Positions 24,247 through 59,492 of a stretch of 64,000 nucleotides of DNA are shown here, piece after piece; positions within the stretch are counted from its first letter, which is position 1, and every line of letters starts with the position of its first letter. The translations under genes and the position numbers were made by a program. Source of the stretch: Agromyces agglutinans (GTDB lineage Bacteria; Actinomycetota; Actinomycetes; Actinomycetales; Microbacteriaceae); the NCBI RefSeq assembly GCF_009647605.1, contig NZ_WJIF01000001.1, forward strand, positions 1 through 64,000, read 5' to 3'. A model generated the notes under the pieces. That model had not been told where the DNA came from. It was given only the letters and a program-made list of their open reading frames with translations, and searched no databases.

Positions 24247-25206
24247 TCAGCCTGCCGCGAGCTTCGCCGCGACCGCGCCCACCCGCTCGCGGAACCAGCG
24301 GTGCCCGGCATCCTGTTCGTGCGACGGACTCCACCAGAACGCCTGCTTGATGCCGGGAATGGCGATCGGGCAGTCGACGGCGACGACATCGCCGCGCTCC
24401 TGGAACCGCTCGACCAGGGAGACCGGCACGAAGGCGACGCGGTCGGTTCCGGCGACCATGTCGGGAAGGGTGAGGAAACTGCGCGTCGTCACCTGCATCC
24501 GCGGGTACACGCCGAGCATGTGCAGTTCGCGGGTCGCCGCGACGATGGCCGTGCGTCCGCTGTACGTCGTCGCCCATGGCCTGGCGCCGAGGGCCTCGAC
24601 GGTCAACGGAGTCGATGCGGTGTCGGTCGCGACCAGGCAACGCCACTGGTCGGTGAAGAGATCGGTGTACTCGAGGTGTTCGAGATAGCCGTGCGGCAGG
24701 ATCAGGCCGTCGATGTCGCGAAGCGAATCGGGTGCCTCGTCGACGACGGCATCCTGCACGTGCTCCATGCGGAGCATCACGTTCGGTGCCACCCTCGAGA
24801 GCTCGCGCGAGAGCGACGCCCCGAACACCGCGGCGACGTAGTCGGAGCAGACCAGGCGGAACTCGCGGCTGCTCTGCTCGGGGCGGAAGTCGGCCTGGGC
24901 GCTGAAGACGCGCGTGAGGGAATTGCTGGCTTGCGTGACCGACTCGAGCAGTTCGATGCCGAGCGGACTGAGCACGTACCTGTTGCCGGCGCGCACGAGG
25001 AGTTCGTCGTTGAAGTGCCGCCGCAGCCGCGAGAGGGCGGCGGACAGCGCGGGCTGGCTCATGTACATGCGCTCGGCCGCACGGCTGACGCTGCGCTCCT
25101 CGAGCAGCATCTGCAACGGCACGACCAGGTTGAGGTCGACCGAGCTCAGCTGCAGCGCGCTCCGGCCGGACTGGGAAGCGTCATCGGCTGCGGGTTCGTT
25201 CGTCAT
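24247..25206 (-). CDS. NodD-like LysR family transcriptional regulator
   Basis: 319 residues. The N-terminal winged HTH (LLEERSVSRAAERMYMSQPA, then LSRLRRHFNDELLVRAG) is closer to the NodD/aromatic-responsive branch of LysR proteins than to most others. The C-terminal effector domain follows from about residue 110. NodD proteins respond to flavonoids and bind ATC-N9-GAT motifs; two such motifs lie in the divergent promoter at 35685-35757. I infer that this regulator controls that promoter in response to an aromatic or flavonoid. It follows the LacI gene by 24 bases on the same strand and may be co-transcribed. Confidence 0.88.
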   Translation of the reverse strand: MTNEPAADDASQSGRSALQLSSVDLNLVVPLQMLLEERSVSRAAERMYMSQPALSAALSRLRRHFNDELLVRAGNRYVLSPLGIELLESVTQASNSLTRVFSAQADFRPEQSSREFRLVCSDYVAAVFGASLSRELSRVAPNVMLRMEHVQDAVVDEAPDSLRDIDGLILPHGYLEHLEYTDLFTDQWRCLVATDTASTPLTVEALGARPWATTYSGRTAIVAATRELHMLGVYPRMQVTTRSFLTLPDMVAGTDRVAFVPVSLVERFQERGDVVAVDCPIAIPGIKQAFWWSPSHEQDAGHRWFRERVGAVAAKLAAG

Positions 25207-25230
25207 CGTCGACGGTCCCTTCGGTCGGTC

Positions 25231-26268
25231 CTATCGCTCGGTGCTGCGCCGCGCGATCAGGGTGGGGGTGAGCCGGATGGCGCGGTGCTCGTGGTCGGGC
25301 GCTTCGACCTCGTCGACGAGGAGTCGTGCGCCGACGTACCCGAGCTCCTCACCGGGCTGGCTGATGGTCGAGATCGGGATCGGGGCATCCCATGCGGCCT
25401 GGTTGTTGTCGTATCCAATCACACTGACCGTGTCGGGCACCGAGATCGGGCGGATCTCGGAGAGCGCCTGGACGATGCCCGCGGCGAGCAGGTCGGATGC
25501 CGCGACGATGCCGTCGACTTCGCCGTTCAGGACACGGTCGGCGAGCTGCCGGCCGACCTGCCATCCGTCGGACCGGTTGACCCAAGCGGGTGAGATCTCG
25601 TCGACCGGCGCGAGGGAGGCTTCGACGAGCGCACGACGGAATCCGGCGCGCCGGTCGGTGACCGGCTGCAGCGTGTCGGGACCACCGACGAAGACGATGC
25701 GGCGTCGACCGGTTTCGAGCAGATGGGATGCCGCGAGGTGGCCGCCGGCCTCGTTGTCGATGGATGCCGTGCAGTAACGGCCGGTGTCGTCGTGGAAGTT
25801 GAGCATGACGATCGGCTGCCCGTGCGCGTGACGCCCGGCGATGGCGCGGAAGTGCGAGGCGTCGTTCAGGGTGAGCAGCACGCCCCGAACGCGGGTCTCG
25901 GCGAAGAGTTCGACGTAGCGGTCCTCGCGCTCCAGCTTGCCGTCGCTGTTGGCGAGCACGACCGACAGCCCCTGTTCGTCGGCCGCGCGCTCGGTGCCGC
26001 GGGCGATGTCGATGAACAGCGAGTTGCCGAGGTCGGAGAGCACCAGGCCGATGGAGCGCGTGCGGCCGGCGGCGAGCGAGCGGGCCGCACCGTTCGGGAT
26101 GTAGCCGAGCATGCCGATGGCCCGATCGATCCGTTCGAGCGTGGGCCCCGCGACCCGCTCGCGGTGGTTCAACGCGTTGGACACGCTCGCGATCGAGACG
26201 CCGGCGAGCGCGGCGACGTCCTTGATGCCGGGGGAGGTCGGCTCTTCGCGCGCCGCTGCGTCTGACAT
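25231..26268 (-). CDS. LacI family transcriptional regulator of the rhamnoside operon
   Basis: 345 residues from ATG 26266-26268. The LacI HTH with hinge helix is at residues about 13-65 (IKDVAALAGVSIASVSNALN, ending GAARSLAAGRT). The periplasmic-binding-like sugar domain follows (IGLVLSDLGNSLF, VIGYDN). It is divergent from the sugar importer operon, with two LacI-type operators between them, so it most likely represses both transcripts until a rhamnosyl sugar is bound. The ribosome site is weak. Confidence 0.92.
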   Translation of the reverse strand: MSDAAAREEPTSPGIKDVAALAGVSIASVSNALNHRERVAGPTLERIDRAIGMLGYIPNGAARSLAAGRTRSIGLVLSDLGNSLFIDIARGTERAADEQGLSVVLANSDGKLEREDRYVELFAETRVRGVLLTLNDASHFRAIAGRHAHGQPIVMLNFHDDTGRYCTASIDNEAGGHLAASHLLETGRRRIVFVGGPDTLQPVTDRRAGFRRALVEASLAPVDEISPAWVNRSDGWQVGRQLADRVLNGEVDGIVAASDLLAAGIVQALSEIRPISVPDTVSVIGYDNNQAAWDAPIPISTISQPGEELGYVGARLLVDEVEAPDHEHRAIRLTPTLIARRSTER

Positions 26269-26288
26269 GTCCGGAAGCCTAACGCAGC

Positions 26289-26302
26289 TTGTAACGCTCC
26301 AA
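26289..26302. promoter_or_regulatory. LacI-type operator 1
   Basis: TTGTAACGCTCCAA, an imperfect palindrome around a central CG, 20 bases upstream of the lacI-type gene. It resembles operator 2 in outer bases and spacing. Confidence 0.5.
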
Positions 26303-26412
26303 GCGACGGTGCAACGTGCATCGACGCGGCGAATATCGGGTATTCCGGAGAGGCGCAGCGCGAAAGGTCCATTCGGCTGGAGCGACCGTCGCCGCCGATC
26401 TACGCTCATCCG

Positions 26413-26426
26413 TTGTAGCGCTTCAA
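26413..26426. promoter_or_regulatory. LacI-type operator 2
   Basis: TTGTAGCGCTTCAA, a 14-base near-palindrome with one mismatched pair, 25 bases before the binding-protein GTG start. Its place between promoter and ribosome site fits repression of the importer operon. A further dyad, GAATATCGGGTATTC, is at 26331-26345. Confidence 0.65.
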
Positions 26427-26451
26427 TCGAGGCCGCATTCAAGGAGGAACT

Positions 26452-27762
26452 GTGACCACAGCACGCAAGCGGGCAAGGAAGATCGTCCCGCTCATCGCCG
26501 GAATCGGCGCCACCGCGCTCGCGCTGACGGGCTGCACCAGCGGCGGAGGCGGAGGCGAGGCCACCGCGCCCGACTCGTTCAGCTATCTCTCGTTCGCCGA
26601 GAACACGTCCATCCAGGACACCCTGACCGCGCTGTCGGAGGGGGAGTGCTCCGCTGAGAACGAGGCGCTCGCGCTCGACATCACGACCCAGCCGCAGGCG
26701 AGCTACGACCAGCAGCTCCAGCTCCTCGCCGGCCAGAACGCGCTGCCGGTGCTGTTCGCGAGCGGCAACACGCCGCAGGTCGCGAAGGACCTGCAGAAGG
26801 GCGGCAAGCTCGTCGACGTCGAGCAGGCGCTCGAGGACCTCGACCAGTCCGACGCGATCATCCCGGCGGCGAAGTCGACCATCGACGCGCTGTACGACGG
26901 CGAGCAGTACGTGCTGCCCACCGAGTTCAACGTCGAGGGCATCTGGTACAACAAGCAGCTCTTCGCCGACCACGGAATCGAAGTTCCGACGACGTGGGAC
27001 GAGCTCGTCGCGGCCGCGGACACGCTCAACGCCGCCGGCGTCATCCCCTTCTCCGCCGACGGACAGGACGGCTGGCCGCTCACCCGCCTGGTGGGCAACT
27101 ACCTCTTCCGCACGCTCGGCCCCGACGCACTGCAGCGCGTGGCCGAGGGCGAGGCGAAGCTGACCGACCCCGAGTACGTCGAGGCCGCGGCGGCCGTCGC
27201 CGAGCTCGGCGACAAGGGCTACTTCGGCCCGTCGGTGACGTCGATCGACTACATGACCGCCGTGAACCAGTTCCTCACCGGCCAGGCGGGCATGTTCTAC
27301 ATGGGCTCGTGGATCCTCGCGAACTTCAACGACCCCGAGCAGAACCAGATCGGCGCGGAGAACATCGGCTTCATGCCGTTCCCCGAGGTCGAGGGCGGCG
27401 AGGGTTCGGCCGACCAGCTCGCCGCGAACGTGGGCGTCCCGCTCGCGCTGTCCGAGGCTTCGTACTCGGACGACGTGGCGTCGTGGCTCGGCTGCTTCGC
27501 CGAGAACTTCGGCTCGAGTTCGCTCGCGAACCAGGGCGTCATCACGGGCTTCAAGGTCGCGACTCCCGTCGAGGACCTGCCTCCGCTGACGCAGGAGGTG
27601 CAGTCGCAGATCGAGGCGACGACCCAGAGCGTGCTCTGGTTCGAGGCGCTGTTCAACGCGAAGGCGGCCACGACCAGCCAGACGAACGCCTCCCAGCTCG
27701 TGACCGGTGCGCTCAGCCCGGAGGAGTTCATGGAGACCGTCCAGGCCGACCTCGGCAACTAG
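26452..27762 (+). CDS. Sugar ABC transporter substrate-binding lipoprotein (SBP family 1)
   Basis: 436 residues from GTG 26452 with AAGGAGG 5 bases upstream. The lipobox is LALTGC near residue 25. The mature protein has the carbohydrate-binding pattern (GIWYNKQLFADHGIEVPTTW, later FLTGQAGMFYMGSW). It captures an oligosaccharide or glycoside for the two permeases downstream. No dedicated ATPase gene is in the operon, so it probably uses a shared MsiK-type ATPase encoded elsewhere, as is usual for actinobacterial CUT1 systems. With the rhamnosidase in the operon, a rhamnose-containing sugar is the likely ligand. Confidence 0.9.
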   Translation: MTTARKRARKIVPLIAGIGATALALTGCTSGGGGGEATAPDSFSYLSFAENTSIQDTLTALSEGECSAENEALALDITTQPQASYDQQLQLLAGQNALPVLFASGNTPQVAKDLQKGGKLVDVEQALEDLDQSDAIIPAAKSTIDALYDGEQYVLPTEFNVEGIWYNKQLFADHGIEVPTTWDELVAAADTLNAAGVIPFSADGQDGWPLTRLVGNYLFRTLGPDALQRVAEGEAKLTDPEYVEAAAAVAELGDKGYFGPSVTSIDYMTAVNQFLTGQAGMFYMGSWILANFNDPEQNQIGAENIGFMPFPEVEGGEGSADQLAANVGVPLALSEASYSDDVASWLGCFAENFGSSSLANQGVITGFKVATPVEDLPPLTQEVQSQIEATTQSVLWFEALFNAKAATTSQTNASQLVTGALSPEEFMETVQADLGN

Positions 27763-27774
27763 CCACGGACACCG

Positions 27775-27837: not shown

Positions 27838-28722
27838 GTGAATCGCGTACTAGGTGACTGGCGGGCCGTCACCGTTCTTCTCGGACCCGCGCTCCTCGTC
27901 TACACCCTCGTCATGCTCGTGCCCATCTTCTGGTCGCTCGGGTACACGGTGTTCGAGGGCAACCCGATCATCGGGTTCACCTTCGTCGGCTGGGACAACA
28001 TCGCCGCGCTCTTCACGGACCCGAAGATCGGCGACGCCCTCGTCTTCACCGTCAAGTACGCGCTCGTGCTCACCGTCGGGCAGGTGCTCGCAGGCTATCT
28101 GCTGAGCCTGCTCTACGTGTTCTGGCTCCGGAAGGCCTCCGGCCTCATCCGCACCCTCGTCTTCTTCCCGGTCGTGCTCCCGACCGTGGCGGTCGCCCTG
28201 TTGTTCCAGGCGCTGTTCGCGATCGCCCCGCAGATCGGCCCGGTCAACGCCCTCCTGAACGCGGTCGGCATCGAATCGATCGACTGGTTCGCCTCCGGGG
28301 GAACGGCCTTCTGGGTCATCATCATCATGGACATCTGGCGTTCGATGGGCTTCTACGCCGTGCTCCTCTACGCCGGCCTCGTCGACATCCCCGAGGAGCT
28401 CTTCGAGTCCGCGCGCATCGATGGCGCATCGGGTTGGCGCCTGGTCCGCCACATCGTGATCCCGCTGTCCCTGCCGGTGCTGTTCTCGTCCATCATCTTC
28501 AGCATCAACGGCACGTTGAAGGTGTTCGACTCCGTGCTCGCGCTCACGAACGGCGGCCCGGGCAACACGACCACCCCGCTCACGCTGTACATGTACCAGA
28601 CCTCGTTCACCTACGGCGAGTACGGCTACGGCAGCTCCATCGCGCTCCTGCTGACGATCCTGTGCCTGCTCGTCACGCTGTTCATCTTCCGTTCCTCGCG
28701 CCGCGACCTGACCAAGGGGTGA
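27838..28722 (+). CDS. Sugar ABC transporter permease (MalF-like)
   Basis: 294 residues from GTG 27838 after an AGGAAAG site. Six membrane segments and the EAA loop (ELFESARIDGASGWRLVRHIVIPLS) identify a CUT1 permease. It pairs with the next gene to form the sugar channel. Confidence 0.9.
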   Translation: MNRVLGDWRAVTVLLGPALLVYTLVMLVPIFWSLGYTVFEGNPIIGFTFVGWDNIAALFTDPKIGDALVFTVKYALVLTVGQVLAGYLLSLLYVFWLRKASGLIRTLVFFPVVLPTVAVALLFQALFAIAPQIGPVNALLNAVGIESIDWFASGGTAFWVIIIMDIWRSMGFYAVLLYAGLVDIPEELFESARIDGASGWRLVRHIVIPLSLPVLFSSIIFSINGTLKVFDSVLALTNGGPGNTTTPLTLYMYQTSFTYGEYGYGSSIALLLTILCLLVTLFIFRSSRRDLTKG

Positions 28723-28726
28723 CCCC

Positions 28727-29629
28727 ATGACCGACACCACACTCGAGACGGTCGCCCGACCCACCGTGCAGGCCCCGGAGCCGCAGCGCCGCAGTCCGCT
28801 GCTCTGGGTCCGCCGCATCCCCGGCTGGCTGGTCGTCGCGGTGCTGCTCATCGCCGTGGGCTACCCGCTCGTCTGGCTGCTGATGGGCTCCTTCAAGACG
28901 CAGGCCGAGTTCCTGAACAATCCGACGTGGGCTCTGCCCGAGGACTGGACCAACTTCGACAACTACGTCGAGGCGTTCACGACCGGCAACCTCGCGGTCT
29001 ACATCAAGAACAGCATCCTGGCCACGCTTCCGGCGCTGGCCCTCACGATCATCATCGGCGTCGCCGCGGGCTTCGCGCTCGAGGTCATGGTGTGGAAGGG
29101 CCGGGGCACCGTGCTGCTGCTCTTCCTCGCCGGCATCATGGTCCCCGGGCAGATGATCCTCCTGCCGCTGTTCACCATCTACTTCCAGACCGGGCTCACC
29201 GGCACGCTGTGGCCGTTGATCATCACGTACACGGCCATCGGCCTGCCGCTCACGGTCTTCATGATGGCCACGTTCTTCCGCGGCGTCCCGCGCGAGATCT
29301 TCGAAGCGGCGACCCTCGACGGTGCCAGCATCTACCGCCAGTTCCGCTCGATCGGCTTTCCGATGGTGAAGAACGCGATCTTCACGGTCGCCCTCGTCCA
29401 GTTCTTCTTCATCTGGAACGACCTCCTGATCGCGCTGACCTTCACGAACCGCGACGACCTGCGCACCATCCAGGTCGGGCTCCTGAACTTCACCGGCGAG
29501 TTCGGGCAGGTCCAGTACGGCCCGACGTTCGCCGCCGTCTGCGTGAACGTCTTCGGCACCCTGATCATCTACCTCTTCCTCAACCAGCGGGTCATGAAGG
29601 GCATGACTGCCGGGGCGGTGAAGGGGTGA
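28727..29629 (+). CDS. Sugar ABC transporter permease (MalG-like)
   Basis: 300 residues, four bases after the MalF-like stop. Six membrane segments and an EAA loop (EIFEAATLDGASIYRQFRSI). A cytoplasmic N-terminal extension of about 30 residues. The stop overlaps the rhamnosidase start (GTGA). Confidence 0.9.
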   Translation: MTDTTLETVARPTVQAPEPQRRSPLLWVRRIPGWLVVAVLLIAVGYPLVWLLMGSFKTQAEFLNNPTWALPEDWTNFDNYVEAFTTGNLAVYIKNSILATLPALALTIIIGVAAGFALEVMVWKGRGTVLLLFLAGIMVPGQMILLPLFTIYFQTGLTGTLWPLIITYTAIGLPLTVFMMATFFRGVPREIFEAATLDGASIYRQFRSIGFPMVKNAIFTVALVQFFFIWNDLLIALTFTNRDDLRTIQVGLLNFTGEFGQVQYGPTFAAVCVNVFGTLIIYLFLNQRVMKGMTAGAVKG

Positions 29630-32274
29630 GCGTCCTCGACCTTCGCGTCGAACACCTCGCCGAACCGCTCGGCATCGGAACCCCGACACCCCGGCTGAGC
29701 TGGCGCCTGTCGACGGGAACGCAGCTCGCGTACGAGGTCGAGGCCGTCCACGCGACCGGACGCAGCGAGCGCGTACGCGTCGACAGCGCCGACACGCTGT
29801 ATCAGCCATGGCCCTTCGCGCCGCTCGACTCGCGGGCCGCGGTCGATCTCCGGGTGCGAGCCCTCGCCGAGGGGGCATCCGAGTTCACCGCGTGGAGCGC
29901 GCCGCTTCGCATCGAGGTCGGCCTGCTCGACGAGGCGGACTGGCAGGTCGATTGGGTCTCGCCCTCGATCGAGGCGGCCCACGACGGCCCGCGTCCGGCG
30001 CACCTGCTGCGCGCCGAGTTCACGACCGTCGGCGAGGTGCGCCGCGCCCGGCTCTACGCCACCGCGCACGGCATCTACGACCTCGAGGTGAACGGCATCG
30101 CCCCGACCGATGAGGTGCTCGCCCCCGGCTGGAGTTCGTACGGGCACCGGCTGCGTTACCGCACGATCGACCTCACGCCGCATCTGGCAGCCGGTCGAAA
30201 CGCGATCGGTGTGCACCTCGCCGACGGGTGGTACCGCGGACGGCTCGGCTTCAACGGCGGCCTCTGGGATGTCTACGGCGGGGATGCCTCGGTGCTGATG
30301 CAGCTCGAGATCGAGGACGAGTCCGGCCTCCGGGTCGTACCGCTCGACTGGCGTACGGCGGCCGGCCCCGTCATCGCGACGGGGTTGTACGAGGGCGAGC
30401 GTCACGACGCGCGCCTCGATGCGCCTGGGTGGTCGCGGCCGGGCTTCGACGACGCCGAGTGGAAGCCGGCCGAGCGCATCCCCCGGAGCGCGTTCGGTGC
30501 GGCGCTCGAGGCGCCGACCGGGCCGCCGGTTCGAGTCGTCGAGACGATCCGACCCACCCTCGTCTCGCGCGCGGCCGACGGAACGATGCTGCTGGACGTC
30601 GGTCAGAACATCGCCGGCAAGATCCGGGTCACCGCCTCGGCGACCGCCGGGGCCACCCTGCGCATCCGCCATGCCGAGGTGCTCGAAGACGGCGAGCTCG
30701 CGACGAGGCCGCTGCGATCCGCGACGTCCGTCGACGAATACACCTTCGCCGCTGCCGGCCGCGTCACCTGGACCCCGCGGTTCACCATCCACGGGTTCCG
30801 CTACGTCGAGATCAGCGGCATCCCGGATCTCGATGTCGGCGACGTCGAGGCGCTCGTCATCCATTCGGACATGCGCCGAACGGGGTGGTTCCGGACGGAT
30901 CATCCGCTGCTCGATCGGTTCCACGAGAACGTCGTCTGGAGCATGCGCGACAACTTCGTCGACCTGCCGACCGACTGCCCCCAACGCGACGAGCGCCTCG
31001 GCTGGACCGGCGACATCCAGGTGTTCGCGCCGACGGCGGCCTACCTGTACGACGCGACCGGCGTCCTCCAGAACTGGCTCCGGGACCTCGCCGCCGAACA
31101 GGCCGCGGCCGGCTCCGTGCCGAACTTCGTCCCTTGGGTCGAGTGTGGATTCCCGAGCGACCCCGCAGCGGTGTGGGGAGACGCCGCCGTGATCGTGCCG
31201 TGGACCCTGTACCGGCGGACCGGCGACAGCGGGATCCTGCGCGACCAGTTCCCGAGCATGCGCGCCTGGATCGACCAGGTGTTCGCGTTGACCGAAGGGA
31301 CCGGGCACTGGAACCGAGGATTCCAGCTCGGCGACTGGCTCGACCCTGCTGCGCCGCCCGAACGGCCGGGAGACTCGAAGACCGACCCGTACCTCGTCGC
31401 GACGGCGTACCTCGCCCATTCGGCGCGCCTCGTGCGCGAGACCGCGCTGGTGCTCGGCGACGAAGCAGCCGCCGACCGCTACGGCGACATCGCCGACCGG
31501 GCGCGTGCAGCGTTCCGGGCGCACTACGTCGCGCCGTCCGGCCGCGTCGTGAGCGACACCGTCACGGCCATCGCGATCGCGATCGCCTTCGACCTGCTGG
31601 AGAACGACGCGCAACGCGCCGAGGCCGGGCGACGGCTCGCGGAACTCGTCGCCGAAGGCGATCACCTGATCCAGACCGGCTTCGCCGGCACGCCGATCGT
31701 CTGCGACGCGCTCGCCGCGACGAACCATCTCGACGTCGCCTACCACCTCCTCATGCGCACCGAATCGCCGTCCTGGCTGTACGCGGTCGTGATGGGCGCG
31801 ACCACCGTCTGGGAGCGATGGGACAGCATGCTCCCCGACGGCAGCATCAATCCGGGCGAGATGACGTCGTTCAACCACTACGCACTCGGTGCGGTGGCCG
31901 ACTTCCTCCACCGCGTCGTGGGCGGCATCGAGGAGCTCGAGCCCGGATACCGGCGCGTGAGGATCGCGCCGCGACCCGGCGGGGGGCTCCGGCGGGCATG
32001 CGCACGGCACGACAGCCCCTATGGGGCGATCGCCAGTGCGTGGGAGCGCATCGGCGGGTGGATGCACCTGACCGTCACGGTACCGGCCGGGGTCACCGCG
32101 GAGGTCATTCCGCCCGGCGGGGATGCGCGGCCGGTGACCGTCACCGAGGGGCGGCACGAACTGCGGTTCGCGGTGCGTCCGGCGGCCGACGATCCGGTGC
32201 GCCCGCGCAGGTGGAACATCCACAACCCCGAGGAACGCCGCGAGATGATCGAGACGGGCACGCTGCGACCATGA
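29626..32274 (+). CDS. Alpha-L-rhamnosidase, GH78
   Basis: 882 residues from GTG 29626, overlapping the permease stop. N-terminal beta domains (Bac_rhamnosid_N) are followed by an (alpha/alpha)6 barrel with the GH78 signature DCPQRDERLGWTGD starting at residue 450, which carries the acidic active-site residues. A C-terminal beta domain closes it. No signal peptide is visible, so it cleaves terminal L-rhamnose from imported glycosides inside the cell. GH78 enzymes act on plant rhamnosides such as naringin, hesperidin and rutin; the partner beta-glucosidase gene overlaps its stop. Confidence 0.93.
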   Translation: MSVLDLRVEHLAEPLGIGTPTPRLSWRLSTGTQLAYEVEAVHATGRSERVRVDSADTLYQPWPFAPLDSRAAVDLRVRALAEGASEFTAWSAPLRIEVGLLDEADWQVDWVSPSIEAAHDGPRPAHLLRAEFTTVGEVRRARLYATAHGIYDLEVNGIAPTDEVLAPGWSSYGHRLRYRTIDLTPHLAAGRNAIGVHLADGWYRGRLGFNGGLWDVYGGDASVLMQLEIEDESGLRVVPLDWRTAAGPVIATGLYEGERHDARLDAPGWSRPGFDDAEWKPAERIPRSAFGAALEAPTGPPVRVVETIRPTLVSRAADGTMLLDVGQNIAGKIRVTASATAGATLRIRHAEVLEDGELATRPLRSATSVDEYTFAAAGRVTWTPRFTIHGFRYVEISGIPDLDVGDVEALVIHSDMRRTGWFRTDHPLLDRFHENVVWSMRDNFVDLPTDCPQRDERLGWTGDIQVFAPTAAYLYDATGVLQNWLRDLAAEQAAAGSVPNFVPWVECGFPSDPAAVWGDAAVIVPWTLYRRTGDSGILRDQFPSMRAWIDQVFALTEGTGHWNRGFQLGDWLDPAAPPERPGDSKTDPYLVATAYLAHSARLVRETALVLGDEAAADRYGDIADRARAAFRAHYVAPSGRVVSDTVTAIAIAIAFDLLENDAQRAEAGRRLAELVAEGDHLIQTGFAGTPIVCDALAATNHLDVAYHLLMRTESPSWLYAVVMGATTVWERWDSMLPDGSINPGEMTSFNHYALGAVADFLHRVVGGIEELEPGYRRVRIAPRPGGGLRRACARHDSPYGAIASAWERIGGWMHLTVTVPAGVTAEVIPPGGDARPVTVTEGRHELRFAVRPAADDPVRPRRWNIHNPEERREMIETGTLRP

Positions 32275-35757: not shown

Positions 35758-35856
35758 AGCGGCGATCAAGGATCGGTTGTTCACCCGGTGTGCCGCTCCG
35801 GCTTTGAATGAGGGCGATCCGCGGCGACGATGCGCGGACCGGAATGGAGAGCCGAC

Positions 35857-37835: not shown

Positions 37836-37876
37836 CCTCCCCCGCTCCAATTCCCGTCGACGAAGGAGTCCACGAA

Positions 37877-48141: not shown

Positions 48142-48214
48142 GTGCCCGCCGTCGCACCCGCGACGGCGACGGCCCGTGACCGAAGCAACCGACGGACTCG
48201 ATGGAGAGCAACCG

Positions 48215-49520: not shown

Positions 49521-49538
49521 GCGATGCGATCCCATCGC
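49521..49538. promoter_or_regulatory. Inverted repeat upstream of pobA
   Basis: GCGATG-N6-CATCGC, flanked by a wider pair GGTCGA (49498-49503) and TCGACC (49543-49548). It lies 40 bases before the pobA start and could be the site of a PobR/PcaR-type regulator; no such gene is in the window. Confidence 0.4.
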
Positions 49539-49577
49539 AGCCTCGACCATCCTGCTCGAAACGCGAAAGGCGCAACG

Positions 49578-51632: not shown

Positions 51633-52188
51633 CACCGGCCAGACGCCGTCGCAGACGGTCGGCCCGTTCTTCGGCTACGCCCTGCCGTACGCCGGCGGTC
51701 CCGAGGTGCGGGCCGCGTGGCAGCCCGACGCGATCCGACTCCACGGGGTGGTGCTCGACGGCGCGGGAGCGCCGATCTCGGACGCGATCATCGAGATCTG
51801 GGGTGCGGATGCCTCTGGCCGCACCTCGACCGAACGCGGGTCGTTCCACCGGGACCAGCACGGGTTCACCGGGTTCGGGCGCTCGGCCGTCGACCGCGAC
51901 GGGCGCTACTCGTTCACGACCGTGAAGCCCGGCGCCATGCGCGACGGATCGGCTCCGTACGTGCTCATCGCCGTCTTCGGGCGCGGGGTCACCCACCACC
52001 TGTTCACGCGGGCGTACTTCGGCGACGAGCCGAGCGCGAACGCCACGGACCCGCTGCTGGTGAGCGTCGATCCCGCGCGCCGCGACACCCTCGTCGCCGT
52101 GCCCGACGCGCCGCGCTCGTACCGCTTCGACCTCCGCCTGCAGGGCGAGCGCGAGACGGTCTTCCTCGACTACGGGGTATCGCGATGA
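51625..52188 (+). CDS. pcaG: Protocatechuate 3,4-dioxygenase, alpha subunit
   Basis: 187 residues from ATG 51625, placed 9 bases after GGAGG; ATG 51616 abuts that site and is unlikely. TPSQTVGPFFGYALP is the PcaG start pattern. It lacks the iron ligands, as alpha subunits do. Overlaps the pcaH end by 8 bases. Confidence 0.95.
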   Translation: MRDTGQTPSQTVGPFFGYALPYAGGPEVRAAWQPDAIRLHGVVLDGAGAPISDAIIEIWGADASGRTSTERGSFHRDQHGFTGFGRSAVDRDGRYSFTTVKPGAMRDGSAPYVLIAVFGRGVTHHLFTRAYFGDEPSANATDPLLVSVDPARRDTLVAVPDAPRSYRFDLRLQGERETVFLDYGVSR

Positions 52189-53399
52189 CCGGACTCGACG
52201 CCACGAGCGACTGGGGCCTGATCGATCCCGGCGCCGCCGACCCCACGGGCACGGCCGACGACGCGGTGCTGGCAGCGATGGTCGACGTCGAGCGGGCGTT
52301 GCTCCGCGCCTGGGGGAGCGAACTCGACGAGTTCCTCGACCCGCAGGCCGACGCCCTCGATGCGGCAGCACTCGTCGCCGATCCGGGCACCCGCACCGCG
52401 CTTCGCGACGGAGTACGTCGCGACGGCGTCCCGGTCGTCGCCCTCGTGCCGGCGCTCCGCGCGCAACTGGAGGCCGCACGCCTCGCGACCGACCGCCTCC
52501 ACCTCGGCGCCACCAGCCAGGACGTCGTCGACACCGCGCTCATGCTCGTCGCGCGTCGCGTCCTCGGTGCCACGCGCGACTCGCTCGTCGCCACCGGGCG
52601 CAAGCTCGCCGTACTCGCCGACGCCGAGCGGGGGAGCATCCGGATGGCCCGCACCGTTGCGCGTCACGCCGAGGCCAGCACGCTCGGTGTGCTCGCCGCC
52701 GGCTGGCTCGACGGCGTCGGCTCGGCGGTCGAGACGATCGATGCACTGCGATACCCGGTGCAGTTCGGCGGCGCCGTCGGCACCGGCACGGCGGCGGATG
52801 CCACGGCCGGTCGAGGGGGCGCGAGCGACACGGTGCGCGCGGCGCTCGCGGCGAAGCTGGGCCTCGACGACCCGGGCCGTGCCTGGCATGCCGAGCGCAC
52901 CGCTGTCGTCGCCATCGCCGCCGCCTCGGCCTCGGCCGTCGCGGCCCTCGGCCGCATCGGCGGAGACGCCGTCCAACTCTCGCGCGAGGAGATCGGCGAA
53001 GTGCGCTTGGCCACCGCGGGCGGTTCCTCGGCCATGCCGCACAAGCGCAATCCGGTCGACGCGGTCGCGATCACCGCCGCCGCAGTCGAGGCCCCCGCGC
53101 ACCTGCAGATCCTCGCCAGCGCCGCGATCGCGGGCGATGAGCGCTCGGCCGGCCGCTGGCACGCCGAGTGGCCGGCCCTCCGCCGCCTGGTACGACTCGC
53201 GCGGTCGAGCGGCATCGCGGCCGAGCGCTTGGTCGCCGGCCTCGAGTTCGACCGGGAACGTGCCGCCGCGATCGTCGCGGGTTCGGGCGCGGCCGGAACG
53301 GGACCCGATCGTGAGGTGCTCGTCGCGGCATCCGATCGCCTGGTCGACCACGCCCTCGCGCGGTTCACCCGCATCGCCGACCGATCGGAGCAGCCGTGA
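52185..53399 (+). CDS. pcaB: 3-carboxy-cis,cis-muconate cycloisomerase
   Basis: 404 residues of the fumarase/aspartase superfamily. Signature GGSSAMPHKRNP and GATSQDVVDTAL are present. It forms 4-carboxymuconolactone. ATGA overlap with pcaG and GTGA overlap with pcaL. Confidence 0.95.
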   Translation: MTGLDATSDWGLIDPGAADPTGTADDAVLAAMVDVERALLRAWGSELDEFLDPQADALDAAALVADPGTRTALRDGVRRDGVPVVALVPALRAQLEAARLATDRLHLGATSQDVVDTALMLVARRVLGATRDSLVATGRKLAVLADAERGSIRMARTVARHAEASTLGVLAAGWLDGVGSAVETIDALRYPVQFGGAVGTGTAADATAGRGGASDTVRAALAAKLGLDDPGRAWHAERTAVVAIAAASASAVAALGRIGGDAVQLSREEIGEVRLATAGGSSAMPHKRNPVDAVAITAAAVEAPAHLQILASAAIAGDERSAGRWHAEWPALRRLVRLARSSGIAAERLVAGLEFDRERAAAIVAGSGAAGTGPDREVLVAASDRLVDHALARFTRIADRSEQP

Positions 53400-54652
53400 C
53401 CGCCCCGGTCCTGCGCGGCGCATTCGCGACCGGCACCCAGCCGGGTGCGACCAGTCCTCTGCTGGTGTTGCTGCCCTCGCTCGGCACCACGACCGCACTC
53501 TGGGACGGCGTCGTCGCCGCGCTGCGCGGCGACCCGCGCCTGGCGTCGGCGCGAATTCTGCGTATCGACCTTCCCGGGCACGGCGCGAGCCCGGCGACCC
53601 GCGACCCGTTCACGATCGGCGACCTCGCCGACGCGGTCCTCGCGGTCGTCGACGAAGCCGGTGGCGGTACCTTCCACGTCGCGGGCGTCTCGCTCGGGGG
53701 AGCGGTCGCACTCGAACTCGCGATCGTGCACGCCGACCGCGTGCGCTCGCTGACCGTCGCCTGCAGCGGCGCGCGCATCGGCACGCCCGATGGCTGGCGC
53801 GAACGAGCGGCCGCCGTGCGGGCGGCCGGCACCGCCTCGCTCGTGACGGGAAGCGCATCGCGCTGGTTCGCGCCCGGCTTCCTCGAGCGCGAAGGCGGCG
53901 GCCCCGGTGCTCGCTCCCTCACGACGCTGATCGACGTCGACGACGAGTCGTATGCGCGATGCGCCGAGGCGCTCGCCGAATTCGATCGCACTGCTGACCT
54001 GCCCCATCTCACGGCGCCGACGCTCGCGATCGGCGGCGAGCACGACGCCGTGACGACGCCCGTGTCGATGCAGGCGTTCGCCGATCGGATACCCGAGGCG
54101 CGGCAGATCGCCATCGCGGGAACCTCGCACCTCGCCGTGCTGGAAGCCCCGACGACCGCCGCCGACCTGATCGCCGCGCACGTCGCGGACGTCGAGCGCG
54201 CGAACCAGGCCGCCGGCGCCTCCGAACGCGGGATGCGCGTGCGACGCGAGGTGCTCGGCGACGCCCACGTCGATCGTGCGGTCGCGGCGACGACACCCGA
54301 GACCGCGGCCTTCCAGGACTTCATCACCCGAACCGCGTGGGGCGATGTCTGGGCCAGGCCGGCTCTGAGCCGTCGGGAGCGCTCCATCGCCACGCTGGCG
54401 AGCCTGACGACCGGCCGTCATGGGCACGAACTCGCGATGCACGTGCGCGCCGCCCAGCGCAACGGGCTCACCCGCGACGAGATCGCCGAGGTGCTCCTGC
54501 ACACCGCGCTCTACGCGGGACTGCCGGCGGCCAACGCGGCGTTCGCGATCGCGCGCGACGTCTTCGGCGAGGCATCCGGCGAGGCATCCGATCAGAGAGC
54601 AACCGGCCCCGGGGCCGGCGCCTCCGACGACACCGAGGAGAACCATGGATAA
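53396..54652 (+). CDS. pcaL: Fused 3-oxoadipate enol-lactonase / 4-carboxymuconolactone decarboxylase
   Basis: 418 residues. The N-terminal alpha/beta hydrolase (PcaD) has the nucleophile elbow GVSLGGA and the His in GTSHLAVLE. The C-terminal part from about residue 280 (MRVRREVLGDAHVDRAV, later GHELAMHVRAAQRNGLTRDE) is PcaC. The fusion is common in actinobacteria. A Ser/Gly/Asp-rich tail follows. Start GTG overlaps pcaB. Confidence 0.95.
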   Translation: MTAPVLRGAFATGTQPGATSPLLVLLPSLGTTTALWDGVVAALRGDPRLASARILRIDLPGHGASPATRDPFTIGDLADAVLAVVDEAGGGTFHVAGVSLGGAVALELAIVHADRVRSLTVACSGARIGTPDGWRERAAAVRAAGTASLVTGSASRWFAPGFLEREGGGPGARSLTTLIDVDDESYARCAEALAEFDRTADLPHLTAPTLAIGGEHDAVTTPVSMQAFADRIPEARQIAIAGTSHLAVLEAPTTAADLIAAHVADVERANQAAGASERGMRVRREVLGDAHVDRAVAATTPETAAFQDFITRTAWGDVWARPALSRRERSIATLASLTTGRHGHELAMHVRAAQRNGLTRDEIAEVLLHTALYAGLPAANAAFAIARDVFGEASGEASDQRATGPGAGASDDTEENHG

Positions 54653-55457
54653 GACCGTCTCGAGCGCCGCCGACGCGGTCGCCGACATCCCGTCGGGCGC
54701 ATCCCTCGCCGTCGGCGGGTTCGGCCTCTCGGGAGTGCCGATCGTCGCGATCCGGGCGCTGCTCGCACAGGGCGCGGACGACCTCGAGGTCGTCTCCAAC
54801 AACTGCGGCGTCGACGGATGGGGGCTCGGCGAGCTGCTCGCCGCCGGCCGCATCCGCAAGGTGATCGCGAGCTACATCGGTGAGAACAGGGAGTTCGCGC
54901 GCCAGTACCTCTCGGGCGAGGTCGAGGTCGAACTGACCCCGCAGGGCACGCTCGCCGAACGTCTCCGCGCCGGCGGCGTCGGCATCCCCGCGTTCTACAC
55001 CGCGACCGGCGCCGGAACCGCCGTCTCAGAGGGCGGGATGCCGCTGCGTTACGCGCCCGACGGCCAGATCGCCCTGACGAGCGAGCCGAAGGAGCTCCGC
55101 GCGTTCGACGCGTTCGGGCCCGCGCGGGAGTACGTCCTCGAGCAGGCGATCCGCACCGACTTCGGGCTCGTGCGCGCCGGGGTCGGCGATCGCCACGGCA
55201 ACCTGCGGTTCGAGAAGTCGACCCGCAACTTCAATCCGCTCGCCGGGATGGCCGGGCGCGTGACGATCGCCGAGGTCGACGAGCTCGTCGAACCGGGCGT
55301 ACTCGGTCCCGACGATATCCACCTCCCGGGCATCTACGTGGACCGCGTCATCGCGCTCACCTCGCAGGAGTCGGCTGACCTGCCGATCGAGAAGATCACG
55401 GTGCGGCCGCGGCCCGGCGCATCCACGACCGACGACGACAACGAGAGGGGCCGTTGA
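54645..55457 (+). CDS. pcaI: 3-oxoadipate CoA-transferase, alpha subunit
   Basis: 270 residues from ATG 54645, preceded by GAGGAG and overlapping the pcaL end by 8 bases. GGFGLSGVP near the N-terminus and [11 protein letters not shown] are the CoA-transferase family I alpha pattern. It works with PcaJ to move CoA from succinyl-CoA to 3-oxoadipate. Confidence 0.94.
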
Positions 55458-56113
55458 TGCCGCTGACCCGAGACGAGATGGCGGCACGCGCGGCGCGCGA
55501 GCTCGAGGACGGCACGTACGTGAACCTCGGCATCGGCCTGCCGACTCTCATCCCGAACCACCTGCCAGCGGGCATCGAGCTCGTGCTGCACTCCGAGAAC
55601 GGCATCCTGGGCGTCGGACCGTACCCGTGGGAGGGCGAGCAGGACCCGAAGCTCATCAACGCGGGCAAGGAGACGGTGACCGTGCTCCCGGGAGCGGCGT
55701 ACTTCGACTCGGCGGCGAGCTTCGGCATGATCCGCGGCGGGCGCATCACGACCGCGGTGCTCGGCGCCATGCAGGTCTCGGCCGGCGGCGACATCGCGAA
55801 CTGGGCCGTGCCCGGGAAGATGGTGAAGGGCATGGGCGGTGCCATGGACCTCGTCAACGGCGCCGAACGCGTCATCGTCGTCATGGAGCACGTCGCCAAG
55901 GACGGCACGCCGAAGCTCGTCGAGCAGTGCACGCTGCCGTTGACGGGAAGGGCCTGCGTCGACCGCGTCATCACCGACCTCGCGGTCTTCGACGTCGCCG
56001 CCGACGGCTTCGAGCTCGTCGAGCTCGCTCCCGGCGTGACCGTCGAGCAGGTGACGGATGCCACGGGCGCGGCGTTCACCGTCGTCGGCGGGATCGTCGA
56101 CGTGGCGCGATGA
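55457..56113 (+). CDS. pcaJ: 3-oxoadipate CoA-transferase, beta subunit
   Basis: 218 residues from ATG 55457 (TGATG junction). NLGIGLPTL and the catalytic Glu in [10 protein letters not shown] are present. Partner of PcaI. Confidence 0.95.
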
Positions 56114-57324
56114 CCGAGCTGCGCGAGGTGGTGATCTGCTCACCGCTCCGTACCCCGGTCGGACGCATGGGCGGTGCGCTCGCGCCGGTGTCGGCCCATT
56201 CGCTCGCGACCAGCGTGCTCGAAGCGCTCCGGGCGCGCACCGGCATCGACCCCGCGGCGATCGACGGCGTCGTCGCCGCGCAGGGCTATCCGACGATGGA
56301 GGCGCCGGCGATCGGACGCGTCGCAGCGCTCGACGCCGGTTTCCCGGTGACGACGACGGGTTACCAGCTCGATCGCCGCTGCGGATCCGGCCTGCAGGCC
56401 GTGCTCAATGCGGCGATGGAGGTGCAGACCGGCGTCGCCGACGCCGTCATCGCACTCGGCGTCGAATCGATGTCGAACGCGCCGCTGTACACGGTCGAGG
56501 GTCGTCGCGGTGTGGCGGGAGCCGGTCTCATGCTGCACGACGCGCTCGCGCGTGGCCGCGAGACCGTCGGCGGCCGACGCTTCCCGACGCCCGAGGGCAA
56601 CGTCGGTTCGGCCGAACTGCTCCGTGCGGGATACGGCGTCTCGCGTGAGGCGCAGGACGCGTTCGCGCTGCGCTCGCACCGGATGGCCGTCGCCGCGCAG
56701 CAGTCGGGCGCATTCGACGCCGAACTCGTGCCGGTCGAGGTCCCGGCCCGGCGCGGGACCGTCACCGTCGATCGCGACGAGCACCCGCGGGCCGACACGA
56801 CGCTCGAGGCGCTCGCCGCGCTCCGCCCGATCCTCGGGCGGGCCGATGCCGAGGCGACGGTGACCGCCGGGAACTCGAGCGGGCAGAACGATGCCGCCGC
56901 TGCGTGCATCGTGACGACGCAGGCCCGCGCAGCCGAACTCGGGCTCGCGCCCATGCTCCGCCTCGTCTCCTGGGCGGTCGCCGGCAACGACCCGCTGCGC
57001 TTCGGCGTCGCCCCGGTGCCCGCGGCGGACCGCGCGCTCGCGCGCGCCGGCATCCGCTTCGCCGATCTCGACGTGATCGAACTCAATGAGGCGTTCGCGG
57101 TGCAGGTGCTCGCGTGCCTTGCCGACTGGGGGCTCGACGCCGACGACGCGCGACTGAACCCGCGGGGGAGCGGCATCTCGATCGGGCATCCGATCGCGGC
57201 GACCGGCATCCGCATGCTCACCACCCTCGCGCACGAACTGCCCGCCCTCGATGGGGAACTCGCGCTCCAGACCATGTGCATCGGCGGCGGGCAGGCGCTC
57301 GCGGCCGTGTTCGCGCGGGTGTGA
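56110..57324 (+). CDS. pcaF: 3-oxoadipyl-CoA thiolase
   Basis: 404 residues, ATGA overlap with pcaJ. Thiolase residues: nucleophile Cys91 in [26 protein letters not shown] with the active His and MCIGGGQ with the second Cys. It yields succinyl-CoA and acetyl-CoA, the end of the pathway. Confidence 0.93.
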
Positions 57325-57379
57325 GCGCCGGACCGGTGGTGAAGATGCGGCCTCACGCATCGAGATGGAAGGGCGGGCG

Positions 57380-58150
57380 ATGAACGGACACGAAGGCAGG
57401 CGGTACGTCGTCACCGGAGCCGCCTCGGGCATCGGCGAGGCGACGGCGACGCTGCTCGCCGACGAGGGGGCCGAGGTGATCGCGGCGGACGTGCGGTGGG
57501 AGGTCGCCGCGGATCCGGACCCACCGAGGGTCGAGCGCGTGACCCTCGACATCGCGGATCCTCGCGCGTGGGCGGCACTGGCCGCACGGGTCGCCGCCGA
57601 CGGCCGCCGAGTCGACGGATTGGTGAACGCGGCCGGCATCACGAGGCGCGCCCGGCTCGATGACGTCACGCGCGAGGACTTCGACGCCGTGTTCGCCGTC
57701 AACGCCACGGGGCCGGCGCTCGGCATGCAGGCGATCGCTCCGCTGATGGGGCCGGGGGCCGCGATCGTGAACCTCGGATCGGCGGCAGGCACGACGGCGC
57801 ACTACGGCATCGCGTACGGTGCGAGCAAGTGGGCGCTTCGCGGCATCACGAAGTCCGCGGCCATGGAACTCGGCGCCCGTGGCATCCGCGTGAACCTCGT
57901 GAGCCCGGGCTACATCGAGACCTCGATGACGGCCGGGGCGCCGGAGGCGTTCCGAGTGGCGAGTCGGGACGCGACGCCGCTCGGGCGTTCGGGAGCCCCG
58001 AAGGAGGTCGCCCAGGTCATCGCGCATCTCCTGTCGCCGGCCGCGTCGTTCGTCACCGGAGCCGAGGTCGCGGTCGATGGGGGACTCACCGGTCATGGCG
58101 GCGGACTCGTGGTCGCGCGCGCGATGGGTGCCGCGCTCCCCTCGACATGA
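57380..58150 (+). CDS. Short-chain dehydrogenase/reductase
   Basis: 256 residues. NAD(P) motif TGAASGIG, NAAG, catalytic Ser in NLGSAAG and YGASK. AADVRWE after beta2 has the Asp that favours NAD(H). It lies 55 bases after pcaF and before a terminator, so it belongs to the end of the aromatic operon. The substrate is unknown; oxidation of an alcohol or aldehyde from side-chain removal is possible. Confidence 0.87.
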   Translation: MNGHEGRRYVVTGAASGIGEATATLLADEGAEVIAADVRWEVAADPDPPRVERVTLDIADPRAWAALAARVAADGRRVDGLVNAAGITRRARLDDVTREDFDAVFAVNATGPALGMQAIAPLMGPGAAIVNLGSAAGTTAHYGIAYGASKWALRGITKSAAMELGARGIRVNLVSPGYIETSMTAGAPEAFRVASRDATPLGRSGAPKEVAQVIAHLLSPAASFVTGAEVAVDGGLTGHGGGLVVARAMGAALPST

Positions 58151-58201
58151 GCGCGGATGCCACGAGCGCTGCTCGGCTCGTTCGTCGTGCCGGTGGCCGA
58201 C

Positions 58202-58232
58202 GAAGGCCGGGGGCGGCACGCCCCCGGCCTTC
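58202..58232. terminator. Bidirectional terminator between SDR and hps
   Basis: A perfect 13-bp stem (58202-58214 with 58220-58232) and 5-base loop between convergent genes. Confidence 0.8.
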
Positions 58233-58242
58233 CTCGAATCGT

Positions 58243-58866
58243 TCAGCCGATGGCGGCGCGGAGACGTGCGGCGGCTTCGCCGACGTTCTCGGCGCTGTAG
58301 ATCGCGCTTCCGGCGACCGCGATCCGAGCGCCCGCATCGCGCACCGAGGCGATGCTCGCCGCGTTGACGCCGCCGGCGACGGAGAACGGGACGCCGGATG
58401 CCTCGCCGTCGCGCAGCAGCGTCTCGAAGGTGAAGCCGGCTTCCGCCTGCTCGTCGAGTCCGGCGTGCATCTCGACGAACTCGGCGCCGAGGGCGACGAC
58501 CTCCTTGGCACGAGCCGGCTTGTCGGCGACGCCGATCAGGTCGACCACGATTCCCTTGCCGTGCTTCTTCGCCGCCTTGACCGCGCCGCTGATCGTGCTG
58601 TCACCCGCGGTTCCGAGCACGGAGACGAGGTCGGCGCCGGCGGAGAAGGCGATCTCGGCCTCGAGCTCGCCGGCGTCCATCGTCTTCAGGTCGGCGAAGA
58701 CGATCTTGTCGGGGTGCGCCTGCTTCACGGCGGTGATCGCCGACAGCCCCTCGCTCTTGATAAGCGGGGTGCCGAGCTCGAGGATGTCGACGTGGGGCGC
58801 GGCCGCCTCGGCGAGCTTGAGCGCGGATTCCGTGGACAGCGTGTCCATGGCGAACTGGAGTTTCAT
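58243..58866 (-). CDS. hxlA: 3-hexulose-6-phosphate synthase
   Basis: 207 residues from ATG 58864-58866 with GAAAGG upstream. LELGTPLI and ADLKTMD are the Mg- and substrate-binding motifs of the HPS/KGPDC family; VSVLGTAGD and AGGVN complete the TIM barrel. It condenses formaldehyde with ribulose 5-phosphate. KGPDC is the alternative, but the adjacent isomerase gene favours HPS. It fits disposal of formaldehyde from O-demethylation. Confidence 0.88.
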   Translation of the reverse strand: MKLQFAMDTLSTESALKLAEAAAPHVDILELGTPLIKSEGLSAITAVKQAHPDKIVFADLKTMDAGELEAEIAFSAGADLVSVLGTAGDSTISGAVKAAKKHGKGIVVDLIGVADKPARAKEVVALGAEFVEMHAGLDEQAEAGFTFETLLRDGEASGVPFSVAGGVNAASIASVRDAGARIAVAGSAIYSAENVGEAAARLRAAIG

Positions 58867-58913
58867 GTGTCGATGCCTTTCGTGTGCTGTGGTGGTGGTC
58901 AGGTGGCGCGGGG

Positions 58914-59492
58914 TCATTCGAGGTTGGCGTGTCGGGCCCACAGCTCATCGGCCGTCTGGCCGCCGGCCTGCCAGAGCGCGTGGAACAGGGCGTCGCCGAG
59001 GAGGACCACGGCCTGCTCGAACAGGCTTCCCGCATACTGCGCCGAGGTCGTCTCAGAGCGGTCGAGCTTGTCGGCCGCCGGCACGAGCACCACCGTGTGG
59101 GCGATCGACGAGAGCGGGGAGCGGGGCGCCGTCGTGATGGCCGCGATCCGGGCTCCGGCGGAGGCGGCCGTCTCGGCGGCGCGGACGATGCCGCCGGTCG
59201 TTCCGGAGCCGCTCGCGGTGAGCAGCAGATCACCAGGACCGATCGCCGGGGCTGTGATCTCGCCGACGACGTGGACGTCGAGACCGAGGTGCATCAGCCG
59301 CATCGCCGTCATGCGAAGGGCGAGGCCGGTGCGACCGGCACCCAGAATGAACACGCGACGAGCGGTGAGCATGGACTCTGCGACCGAAGTCAGCGCAGCG
59401 TCTTGCGCACCGGCGACGCGGTCGAGGGATGCGTCGAGTTCCGCGCGGATCTCGCCGAGGGCGGGAGCGACATCGATCTCCATGACAGGCAT
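58914..59492 (-). CDS. hxlB: 6-phospho-3-hexuloisomerase
   Basis: 192 residues of the SIS fold: FILGAGRTGLALRMTAMRLM and TASGSGTTGGIV are the phosphosugar-binding loops typical of PHI. It turns hexulose 6-phosphate into fructose 6-phosphate. The hps gene follows after 47 bases on the same strand. ATG 59490-59492 has no clear site; ATG 59481-59483 is possible. Confidence 0.9.
   Translation of the reverse strand: MPVMEIDVAPALGEIRAELDASLDRVAGAQDAALTSVAESMLTARRVFILGAGRTGLALRMTAMRLMHLGLDVHVVGEITAPAIGPGDLLLTASGSGTTGGIVRAAETAASAGARIAAITTAPRSPLSSIAHTVVLVPAADKLDRSETTSAQYAGSLFEQAVVLLGDALFHALWQAGGQTADELWARHANLE

Follow-up and report, generated by a model that had tools for sequence, protein, structure and literature searches.

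The question raised by the 64,000-nucleotide stretch of Agromyces agglutinans DNA analysed here (contig NZ_WJIF01000001.1, positions 1 to 64,000; the window) is whether the catabolic genes between positions 24,247 and 59,492 serve one substrate, and which one. The first-pass annotation, made from the sequence alone, had read them as a possible complete route for methoxylated flavonoid rhamnoglucosides, an interpretation that as a whole was partly supported. With slightly better than even confidence, we read the region as an island for the catabolism of a plant flavonoid O-rhamnoglucoside, the glycoside of a 4'-methoxyflavone (linarin/acacetin type) being the most likely candidate. Gene calls were made on the window sequence, and the proteins were scanned against Pfam, NCBIfam and PDB sequences, the Pfam scan covering 40 proteins, 36 of them within 24.2-64.0 kb; every gene type that the annotation had named was found. 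Protein families, gene order and conserved linkage come from the sequence, and every substrate, as well as the order of reactions within step 5 of the pathway proposed below, we infer. The genes for sugar removal, ring opening and the cytochrome P450 are as follows.

24247-25206, minus strand: LysR-type regulator (PF03466/PF00126)
25231-26268, minus strand: LacI-type regulator, divergent from the sugar importer (PF00356/PF13377)
26413-26426, plus strand: candidate LacI operator TTGTAGCGCTTCAA, upstream of the importer/GH78 operon (identified by eye)
26452-27762, plus strand: solute-binding protein of a sugar/glycoside ABC importer (PF01547)
27838-28722, plus strand: ABC permease (PF00528)
28727-29629, plus strand: second ABC permease (PF00528)
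29626-32274, plus strand: GH78 alpha-L-rhamnosidase (five rhamnosidase Pfam domains, catalytic domain E 6e-121)
32271-34481, plus strand: GH3 beta-glycosidase (PF00933/PF01915/PF14310)
34548-35570, minus strand: VOC-fold extradiol dioxygenase (EDO; PF00903; start corrected to 35570 by homology)
35830-36837, plus strand: FAH1, FAH-fold C-C hydrolase (PF01557; nearest PDB entry 1gtt)
36834-37835, plus strand: cyclase-family metal-dependent hydrolase (PF04199; nearest PDB entry 5ibz)
37832-39010, plus strand: flavin monooxygenase (FMO), proposed A-ring hydroxylase (PF01494; PRK06847 406.6 bits, cut-off 372)
39007-40050, plus strand: amidohydrolase, ACMSD-like decarboxylase (PF04909; PDB matches)
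40047-41069, plus strand: FAH2, fumarylacetoacetase-like C-C hydrolase (start corrected to 40047, 340 aa)
41127-42104, plus strand: Fer2 reductase, proposed electron donor of the P450 (PF00111)
42161-43375, plus strand: CYP199-type P450, proposed 4-methoxybenzoate O-demethylase (PDB matches)

GH78, the ring-opening genes from EDO to FAH2 (the module) and CYP199 are also co-located in Agromyces fucosus and three Demequina, which supports the annotation's reading of sugar removal, ring opening and the P450 as parts of one region. In A. fucosus (our loci L127, L092 and L128) the order is pca genes, pobA, LysR, MFS, FAH2, amidohydrolase, FMO, cyclase, FAH1 and EDO, followed by CYP199, reductase, GH3, GH78, permeases, solute-binding protein, LacI and LysR. 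The solute-binding protein, permeases, GH78, GH3, reductase and CYP199 genes lie on the same strand and are transcribed in that order, the 1 kb gap between GH3 and reductase holding an open reading frame without a Pfam family; the A. fucosus genes are 59-88% identical to those of the window, apart from one LysR copy at 44%. Two Demequina loci (L079, L097), with shared genes 43-77% identical to the window's, carry the reductase and CYP199 downstream of cyclase-FMO-FAH2-MFS on one strand, and GH78 and its importer flank EDO on the opposite side. In the third Demequina (L125/L134) the reductase and CYP199 are about 9 kb from EDO with GH78 between, and no close importer homologue was seen beside this GH78. 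Because of this co-location, and of the strand order of the P450 in A. fucosus and two Demequina, we favour one pathway with a 4'-methoxyflavone rhamnoglucoside as its probable substrate.

This association was counted in a wider set of EDO loci, the best 80 of 219 EDO relatives in genome contigs, with flanks of up to 10 kb (some contigs being shorter). The flanks held CYP199 in 4 loci and GH78 in 7, and all 4 were among the 7 (p 2.2e-5, uncorrected). The CYP199 search covered 61 named EDO genomes (12 at a limit of 1e-40, 49 at 1e-90), with the genomes of the other 19 loci outside it; CYP199 (at least 49% identity) was present in 10 of the 61, and in six of these, namely A. fucosus, the three Demequina, Leifsonia flava and Arthrobacter Leaf337, it lay within about 10 kb of EDO. 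A P450 match at 31% in G156 was not taken as CYP199.

The six genes EDO-FAH1-cyclase-FMO-amidohydrolase-FAH2 form a conserved module, found together more than chance would allow: FMO was present in the flanks of 66 of the 80 EDO loci, and all five partners stood near EDO in 39. The putative metal ligands of EDO (H184, H248 and E299 in 372-aa numbering), whose metal-binding roles we assume, were invariant in 13 aligned sequences. EDO fell below the curated cut-offs for catechol 2,3-dioxygenase (246.1 vs 320.2 bits) and HpaD (159.2 vs 321.4 bits), and FMO far below those of the salicylate monooxygenase (76.8 vs 446.35 bits) and 3-hydroxybenzoate monooxygenase (134.7 vs 459 bits) models, so that neither enzyme belongs to the families that the annotation had held incompatible with its own reading, gentisate enzymes not being tested separately. 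The 13 best PDB sequences for the amidohydrolase were all ACMSD (best E 1e-49), FAH1 was closest to 1gtt, the isomerase/decarboxylase of the 4-hydroxyphenylacetate pathway, and FAH2 was closest to the fumarylacetoacetate hydrolases among PDB sequences. In the 66 loci with FMO (among L047-L126), FAH1 occurred in 50 and an fde-type alpha/beta hydrolase in 16, with both in 0 and neither in 0, as if these were two ways to do one step; an exception among 16 regions from the family is L034, which has FMO and cyclase and shows neither. An identity of FAH1 as rhamnonate hydrolase was rejected, because FAH1 accompanies the module in numerous loci in which no GH78 was seen; its best NCBIfam match reached just 145.8 of 500 bits.

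An 11-mer, TTCCCTGATRC, was observed once each in 25 of 194 loci, three of which overlap others of the 25, and lay about 55-90 bp upstream of the EDO start where compared (e.g., L070:9922-9932 and L079:9914-9924). It is a possible promoter or LysR site, and no exact match was listed near the EDO locus of the window.

The substrate of the module is best approached through its neighbours in other genomes. In a sample of 150 genomes of the family, EDO was found at E<=1e-60 in 16, the A. agglutinans genome included, and PF19906, the beta subunit of C-glycoside deglycosidase, in 11, all 11 of them among the 16 with EDO (hypergeometric 2.9e-13, uncorrected for kinship). A PF19906 copy above the curated cut-off lay within 11 kb of EDO in 9 of the 11 genomes; of the remaining two, one had its nearest copy on the contig of EDO at a distance of 85 kb, and the other at about 787 kb. 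Among the 80 loci, a C-glycoside oxidase/deglycosidase homologue stood near EDO in 23 and never together with GH78, an exclusion that is non-significant for the oxidase (Fisher p 0.18). The GMC oxidase beside EDO in Deinococcus aetherius matched PDB 8qve over about its full length (1018 bits) and also 7dve, both of which we take to be C-glycoside oxidases, and the alpha subunit near EDO of L036 matched 7dnm, presumably a Microbacterium CGD. The A. agglutinans genome gave no PF19906 match at E<=0.001, and GH78/GH3 occupy the place of the C-glycoside kit. Given this association of EDO with C-glycoside deglycosidase genes, plant glycoside aglycones are the most likely substrates of the module, flavonoids being the best candidates.

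For the fate of the B-ring, the remaining genes of the region are needed.

43372-48086, plus strand: Liv-type ABC importer with two ATPases, two permeases and a binding protein (PF00005/PF02653/PF13458; start of the second ATPase provisional)
48176-49456, plus strand: MFS transporter (Pfam)
49524-50768, plus strand: pobA, 4-hydroxybenzoate 3-monooxygenase (PRK08243 532 bits, cut-off 351)
50835-57324, plus strand: pcaH, pcaG, pcaB, pcaDC, pcaI, pcaJ and pcaF, protocatechuate branch (Pfam, NCBIfam)
57380-58150, plus strand: short-chain dehydrogenase (PF13561)
58243-59492, minus strand: hps and phi, formaldehyde fixation (TIGR03128 and TIGR03127 above cut-off)

Judged by its PDB matches (CYP199 entry 9g9q, E 3e-179; CYP199A4 entries, about 1e-136; next group, 1e-50), the P450 is of CYP199 type, the para-methoxybenzoate demethylase family. 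Its residues R86, S89, R238, S239 and S242 lie at the offsets of R92, S95, R243, S244 and S247, which we take to be the carboxylate-binding residues of CYP199A4, and the motifs PWRPPS and VRSLL(S/T)AGVDTT were kept in 7 of 7 aligned CYP199 proteins, S242 being T in four. As far as excerpts describe CYP199A2 and CYP199A4, the 4-methoxybenzoate P450s of Rhodopseudomonas, the window P450 shares with them the sequence family and these presumed residues, but differs in having a Fer2-type reductase next door; a Fer2 reductase also stands directly beside CYP199 in A. fucosus and the three Demequina. CYP199A4 demethylates 4-methoxybenzoate, according to excerpts of its literature (PMC6021390). PobA scored 468 bits against the equivalog TIGR02360, below its 538.7; PcaDC was above its NCBIfam cut-off, and PcaB and PcaF were below their equivalog cut-offs. 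The pcaH gene is the single copy in the genome (search at E<=1e-20), which makes pob/pca a general route. The substrate of the Liv-type importer, homologues of which stand beside EDO in L085, is probably an aromatic acid, and an MFS homologue adjoins EDO in 19 of the 80 loci.

Considering these results, we propose a plausible route. The LacI-controlled ABC importer would take up the glycoside (step 1), from which rhamnose and glucose would be cut off by GH78 and GH3, probably in the cytoplasm (step 2). The A-ring would then be hydroxylated to an ortho-diol by the flavin monooxygenase (step 3), and the diol opened by meta cleavage through the VOC-type dioxygenase (step 4). In step 5, the two FAH-fold enzymes may act with the cyclase-family hydrolase and the ACMSD-like decarboxylase to remove what is left of the A-ring and to convert the resulting pyrone into a beta-diketone acid, C-C hydrolysis of which would release the B-ring benzoate and a 3-oxo acid; for a flavone, a 6-aryl pyrone would give a 5-aryl-3,5-dioxo acid, and FAH-fold C-C hydrolysis of the latter an aryl carboxylate and acetoacetate. 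A 3-oxo acid product fits the pcaI-like CoA-transferase that adjoins EDO without pcaH in 7 of the 80 loci. The CYP199-type P450 and its reductase would convert 4-methoxybenzoate to 4-hydroxybenzoate (step 6), and PobA and the pca enzymes would complete its breakdown (step 7). A benzoate exit would suit the P450 as well as pobA and the pca genes, and it speaks for a flavone rather than an isoflavone; the Pfam and NCBIfam scans revealed no cinnamate-CoA route.

Several observations weigh against this reading. GH78 is common, with a relative at E<=1e-60 in 64 of the 150 family genomes, and three of the seven EDO loci with GH78 had no CYP199 in their flanks. Loci with both GH78 and CYP199 fell in three spots on a quick EDO tree (83 rows), and an independent-pairs test was non-significant (median p 0.25), the pairs being too few. 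The flanks of the nearest EDO relative (87%), from Agromyces Marseille-P2726, lack GH78, and a search of this genome for CYP199 at E<=1e-40 gave no match. CYP199 was present at E<=1e-90 in 7 of the 150 family genomes, five of which (39-63% identity) had no EDO; the A. agglutinans genome and G102, whose P450 is placed as in L. flava, were the only ones with CYP199 and EDO. In L. flava and Arthrobacter Leaf337 CYP199 is close to EDO, and the regions read show no GH78. The hps gene, finally, was found in 2 of 10 CYP199 genomes vs 20 of 51 without CYP199 (including one at just 37% identity), and in none of the four genomes with GH78, EDO and CYP199 together. A 4'-methoxy B-ring had been offered as the explanation of both the P450 and the formaldehyde genes; the P450 part is supported by the CYP199-type assignment, whereas the link between formaldehyde genes and P450 is unsupported by the relatives.

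The co-location could also be a chance neighbourhood of an independent rhamnoside operon, an unrelated resorcinol-type module and an anisate/4-hydroxybenzoate island. The several strand blocks, the separate LacI and LysR regulators, the commonness of GH78 in the family and the sole pcaH of the genome, which marks pob/pca as a general route, are all consistent with this; however, GH78, module and CYP199 have been kept together in A. fucosus and in Demequina in spite of identities of 43-77%, and EDO tracks C-glycoside deglycosidase genes, so that we regard a chance neighbourhood as improbable. Less remote, though still on the unlikely side, is that the module degrades aglycones of plant glycosides but that the substrate here is another phenolic (of xanthone, anthraquinone, chalcone or stilbene type) or a flavonoid that lacks the 4'-methoxy group; free anisate and 4-hydroxybenzoate would then be what the P450 and the pob/pca genes serve. 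C-glycoside kits like those neighbouring the module act, according to excerpts of the reports, on non-flavonoids such as carminic acid, and on mangiferin (PMC8563793, PMC10646112), which counts against a flavonoid, and both the module with CYP199 in L. flava and Leaf337 and the family genomes with CYP199 and without EDO point the same way. Against this alternative, all four loci with CYP199 in their flanks have GH78, and the P450 of A. fucosus is downstream of the GH78 operon on the same strand.

Comparison with known systems adds to the points on the negative side. The ring-opening enzymes had been called fde-like, after the fde operon, on which Marin reportedly published in 2013 and 2016. 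Named plasmid loci of Burkholderia anthina, Azospirillum, Diaphorobacter, Pseudomonas and Massilia were used as stand-ins for the Fde proteins, their gene order being taken as that of fdeA-J. The B. anthina, Diaphorobacter and Azospirillum plasmid clusters contain alpha/beta hydrolase, VOC, Rieske, FMO, cyclase and FAH genes in order, and those of Burkholderia and Diaphorobacter additionally MFS and cupin genes. As a statement of orthology, "fde-like" found no support: EDO matched the VOC proteins of L045 and L195-L198 (stand-ins, not FdeC itself) at no more than 28% over partial length (46.2 bits or less), the window cyclase had no match to the stand-ins at E<=1e-4, and the 40 scanned proteins included no Rieske domain, the FdeD partner. 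FMO was 34-38% identical to the FMOs of these look-alike loci, and LysR 25-34% to fde-type proteins; over partial length, FAH2 was 31-36% and FAH1 24-27% identical to the stand-ins. According to an excerpt, FdeE and IfcA are themselves mutually 36.3% identical (PMC11069340). The transfer of a true fde/ifc orthologous cluster into an actinobacterium would account for the same enzyme kinds, the LysR regulator and the LysR and FMO identities (to Burkholderia, Azospirillum, Diaphorobacter and Massilia proteins), but is very improbable in view of the EDO, cyclase and Rieske results.

The window module thus seems to work like fde by its enzyme kinds, which the fde-type and Deinococcus clusters also employ, and is not classed as fde because its EDO and cyclase belong to subfamilies other than the fde type. 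In excerpts of the literature, the fde naringenin operon is assigned to Herbaspirillum seropedicae SmR1 (PMC8552027, PMC10799723, PMC11069340), the identities of FdeA, FdeD and FdeE are supported (PMC8552027), both Fde and Ifc enzymes attack flavonoids through C8 hydroxylation and A-ring cleavage, and an ifc double cupin mutant accumulates 2-hydroxy-5-(4-hydroxyphenyl)-4H-pyran-4-one (PMC11069340). Common to fde and the window would be LysR control, a flavin monooxygenase followed by extradiol cleavage of the A-ring, and the cyclase- and FAH-fold partners seen in the look-alike plasmid loci L195-L197. Unlike fde, the window adds an ACMSD-like amidohydrolase and a second FAH, with deglycosylation and B-ring genes adjoining. 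The Variovorax isoflavone cluster ifc likewise uses FMO and then VOC-type A-ring cleavage, but an IfcD-type cupin is absent from the 40 scanned proteins, and no deglycosylation genes are named for ifc in the excerpts of its report (PMC11069340). The soil C-glycoside kits CarA/CarBC, PurA/PurBC and CGO/CGD, as excerpts present them (PMC8563793, PMC12724307, PMC10646112), have counterparts adjoining the same EDO in many relatives, whereas A. agglutinans has GH78/GH3 in their place.

Between the two types stands the D. aetherius plasmid (L028), which appears to be a bridge or hybrid: a window-type EDO (64%) lies beside the C-glycoside kit, with GH3 and a sugar importer, and the same plasmid carries fde-type alpha/beta hydrolase (63-68%), cyclase (41-43%) and epimerase (46-50%) genes. 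Herbaspirillum was absent from the titles of the best 80 of 219 EDO relatives. An EDO scan of 398 Pseudomonadota genomes gave matches in 45, and in one region each of 20 of these 45 the EDO+FMO cluster was absent. On Rhizobium rhizogenes K84 plasmid pAtK84c (L027), an EDO 46% identical to that of the window is accompanied by FAH, alpha/beta hydrolase, cupin-like and epimerase genes of fde type, in a catabolic cluster without assignment. A plasmid of Pseudomonas sp. CIP-10 (L198) holds LLM oxidoreductase, FMN reductase, GH3, porin, alpha/beta hydrolase, VOC, FAH and cyclase genes, possibly another glycoside cluster.

More broadly, and tentatively, at somewhat less than even confidence, we suggest that actinobacteria have an A-ring meta-cleavage flavonoid pathway of their own, with a non-fde/ifc dioxygenase and cyclase and with exchangeable ends, a C-glycoside oxidase/deglycosidase or GH78/GH3 at the front and CYP199 with pob/pca at the back. 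In this view the window would encode, at one locus, nearly all steps that lead from an intact, imported 4'-methoxyflavone rhamnoglucoside to central metabolism. Plants make flavonoid glycosides in abundance, and flavonoid A-ring pathways are described for proteobacteria in the excerpts of the literature consulted; this would be the actinobacterial version. It would name likely genes downstream of deglycosylation in soil actinobacteria, for which a term search of the accessible text of the soil C-glycoside studies found no mention of a dioxygenase or monooxygenase, and would provide a model, open to testing, in which the modules for sugar removal and for the B-ring can be exchanged. No title on the topic of this region stood among the open-licence PMC papers listed.

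At the sugar end, the nearest solved entries of the LysR protein were 1utb/1uth, a LysR-type regulatory protein that we take to be DntR, and a LysR homologue was near EDO in 32 of the 80 loci. AGCGCT-centred sites like TTGTAGCGCTTCAA precede the importer in A. fucosus and in Demequina L079. A LacI-like pattern, written from the importer site and therefore matching it exactly by construction (the sole exact match), had 3 matches with up to two mismatches vs 0.96 expected, a number reached in 7 of 100 shuffles. One operator common to all blocks was rejected, no motif shared by the other promoters being seen by eye. The domain set of GH78 is complete, which places it among GH78 alpha-L-rhamnosidases (Pfam), and because its N-terminus has no obvious signal peptide by eye, the enzyme is probably cytoplasmic. 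As a stand-alone marker GH78 was rejected on its frequency in the family. Further GH78 genes occur within about 30 kb of the cluster in Demequina genomes (L129, L130, L131, L132, L134).

The host genome is 3.9 Mb and high-GC, and the window pcaJ is 95% identical to that of A. bracchium. EDO and CYP199 were both absent, at the limits used, from two same-genus genomes of the family sample, and the region is therefore regarded as accessory. Upstream of it, positions 17300-24070 hold few recognisable genes, the open reading frames at 20430-21473 and 21646-22641 having no Pfam match. At 15779-17223 a phage-type integrase directly adjoins a tRNA-Met gene, which may mark the border of a genomic island to which the catabolic genes might belong.

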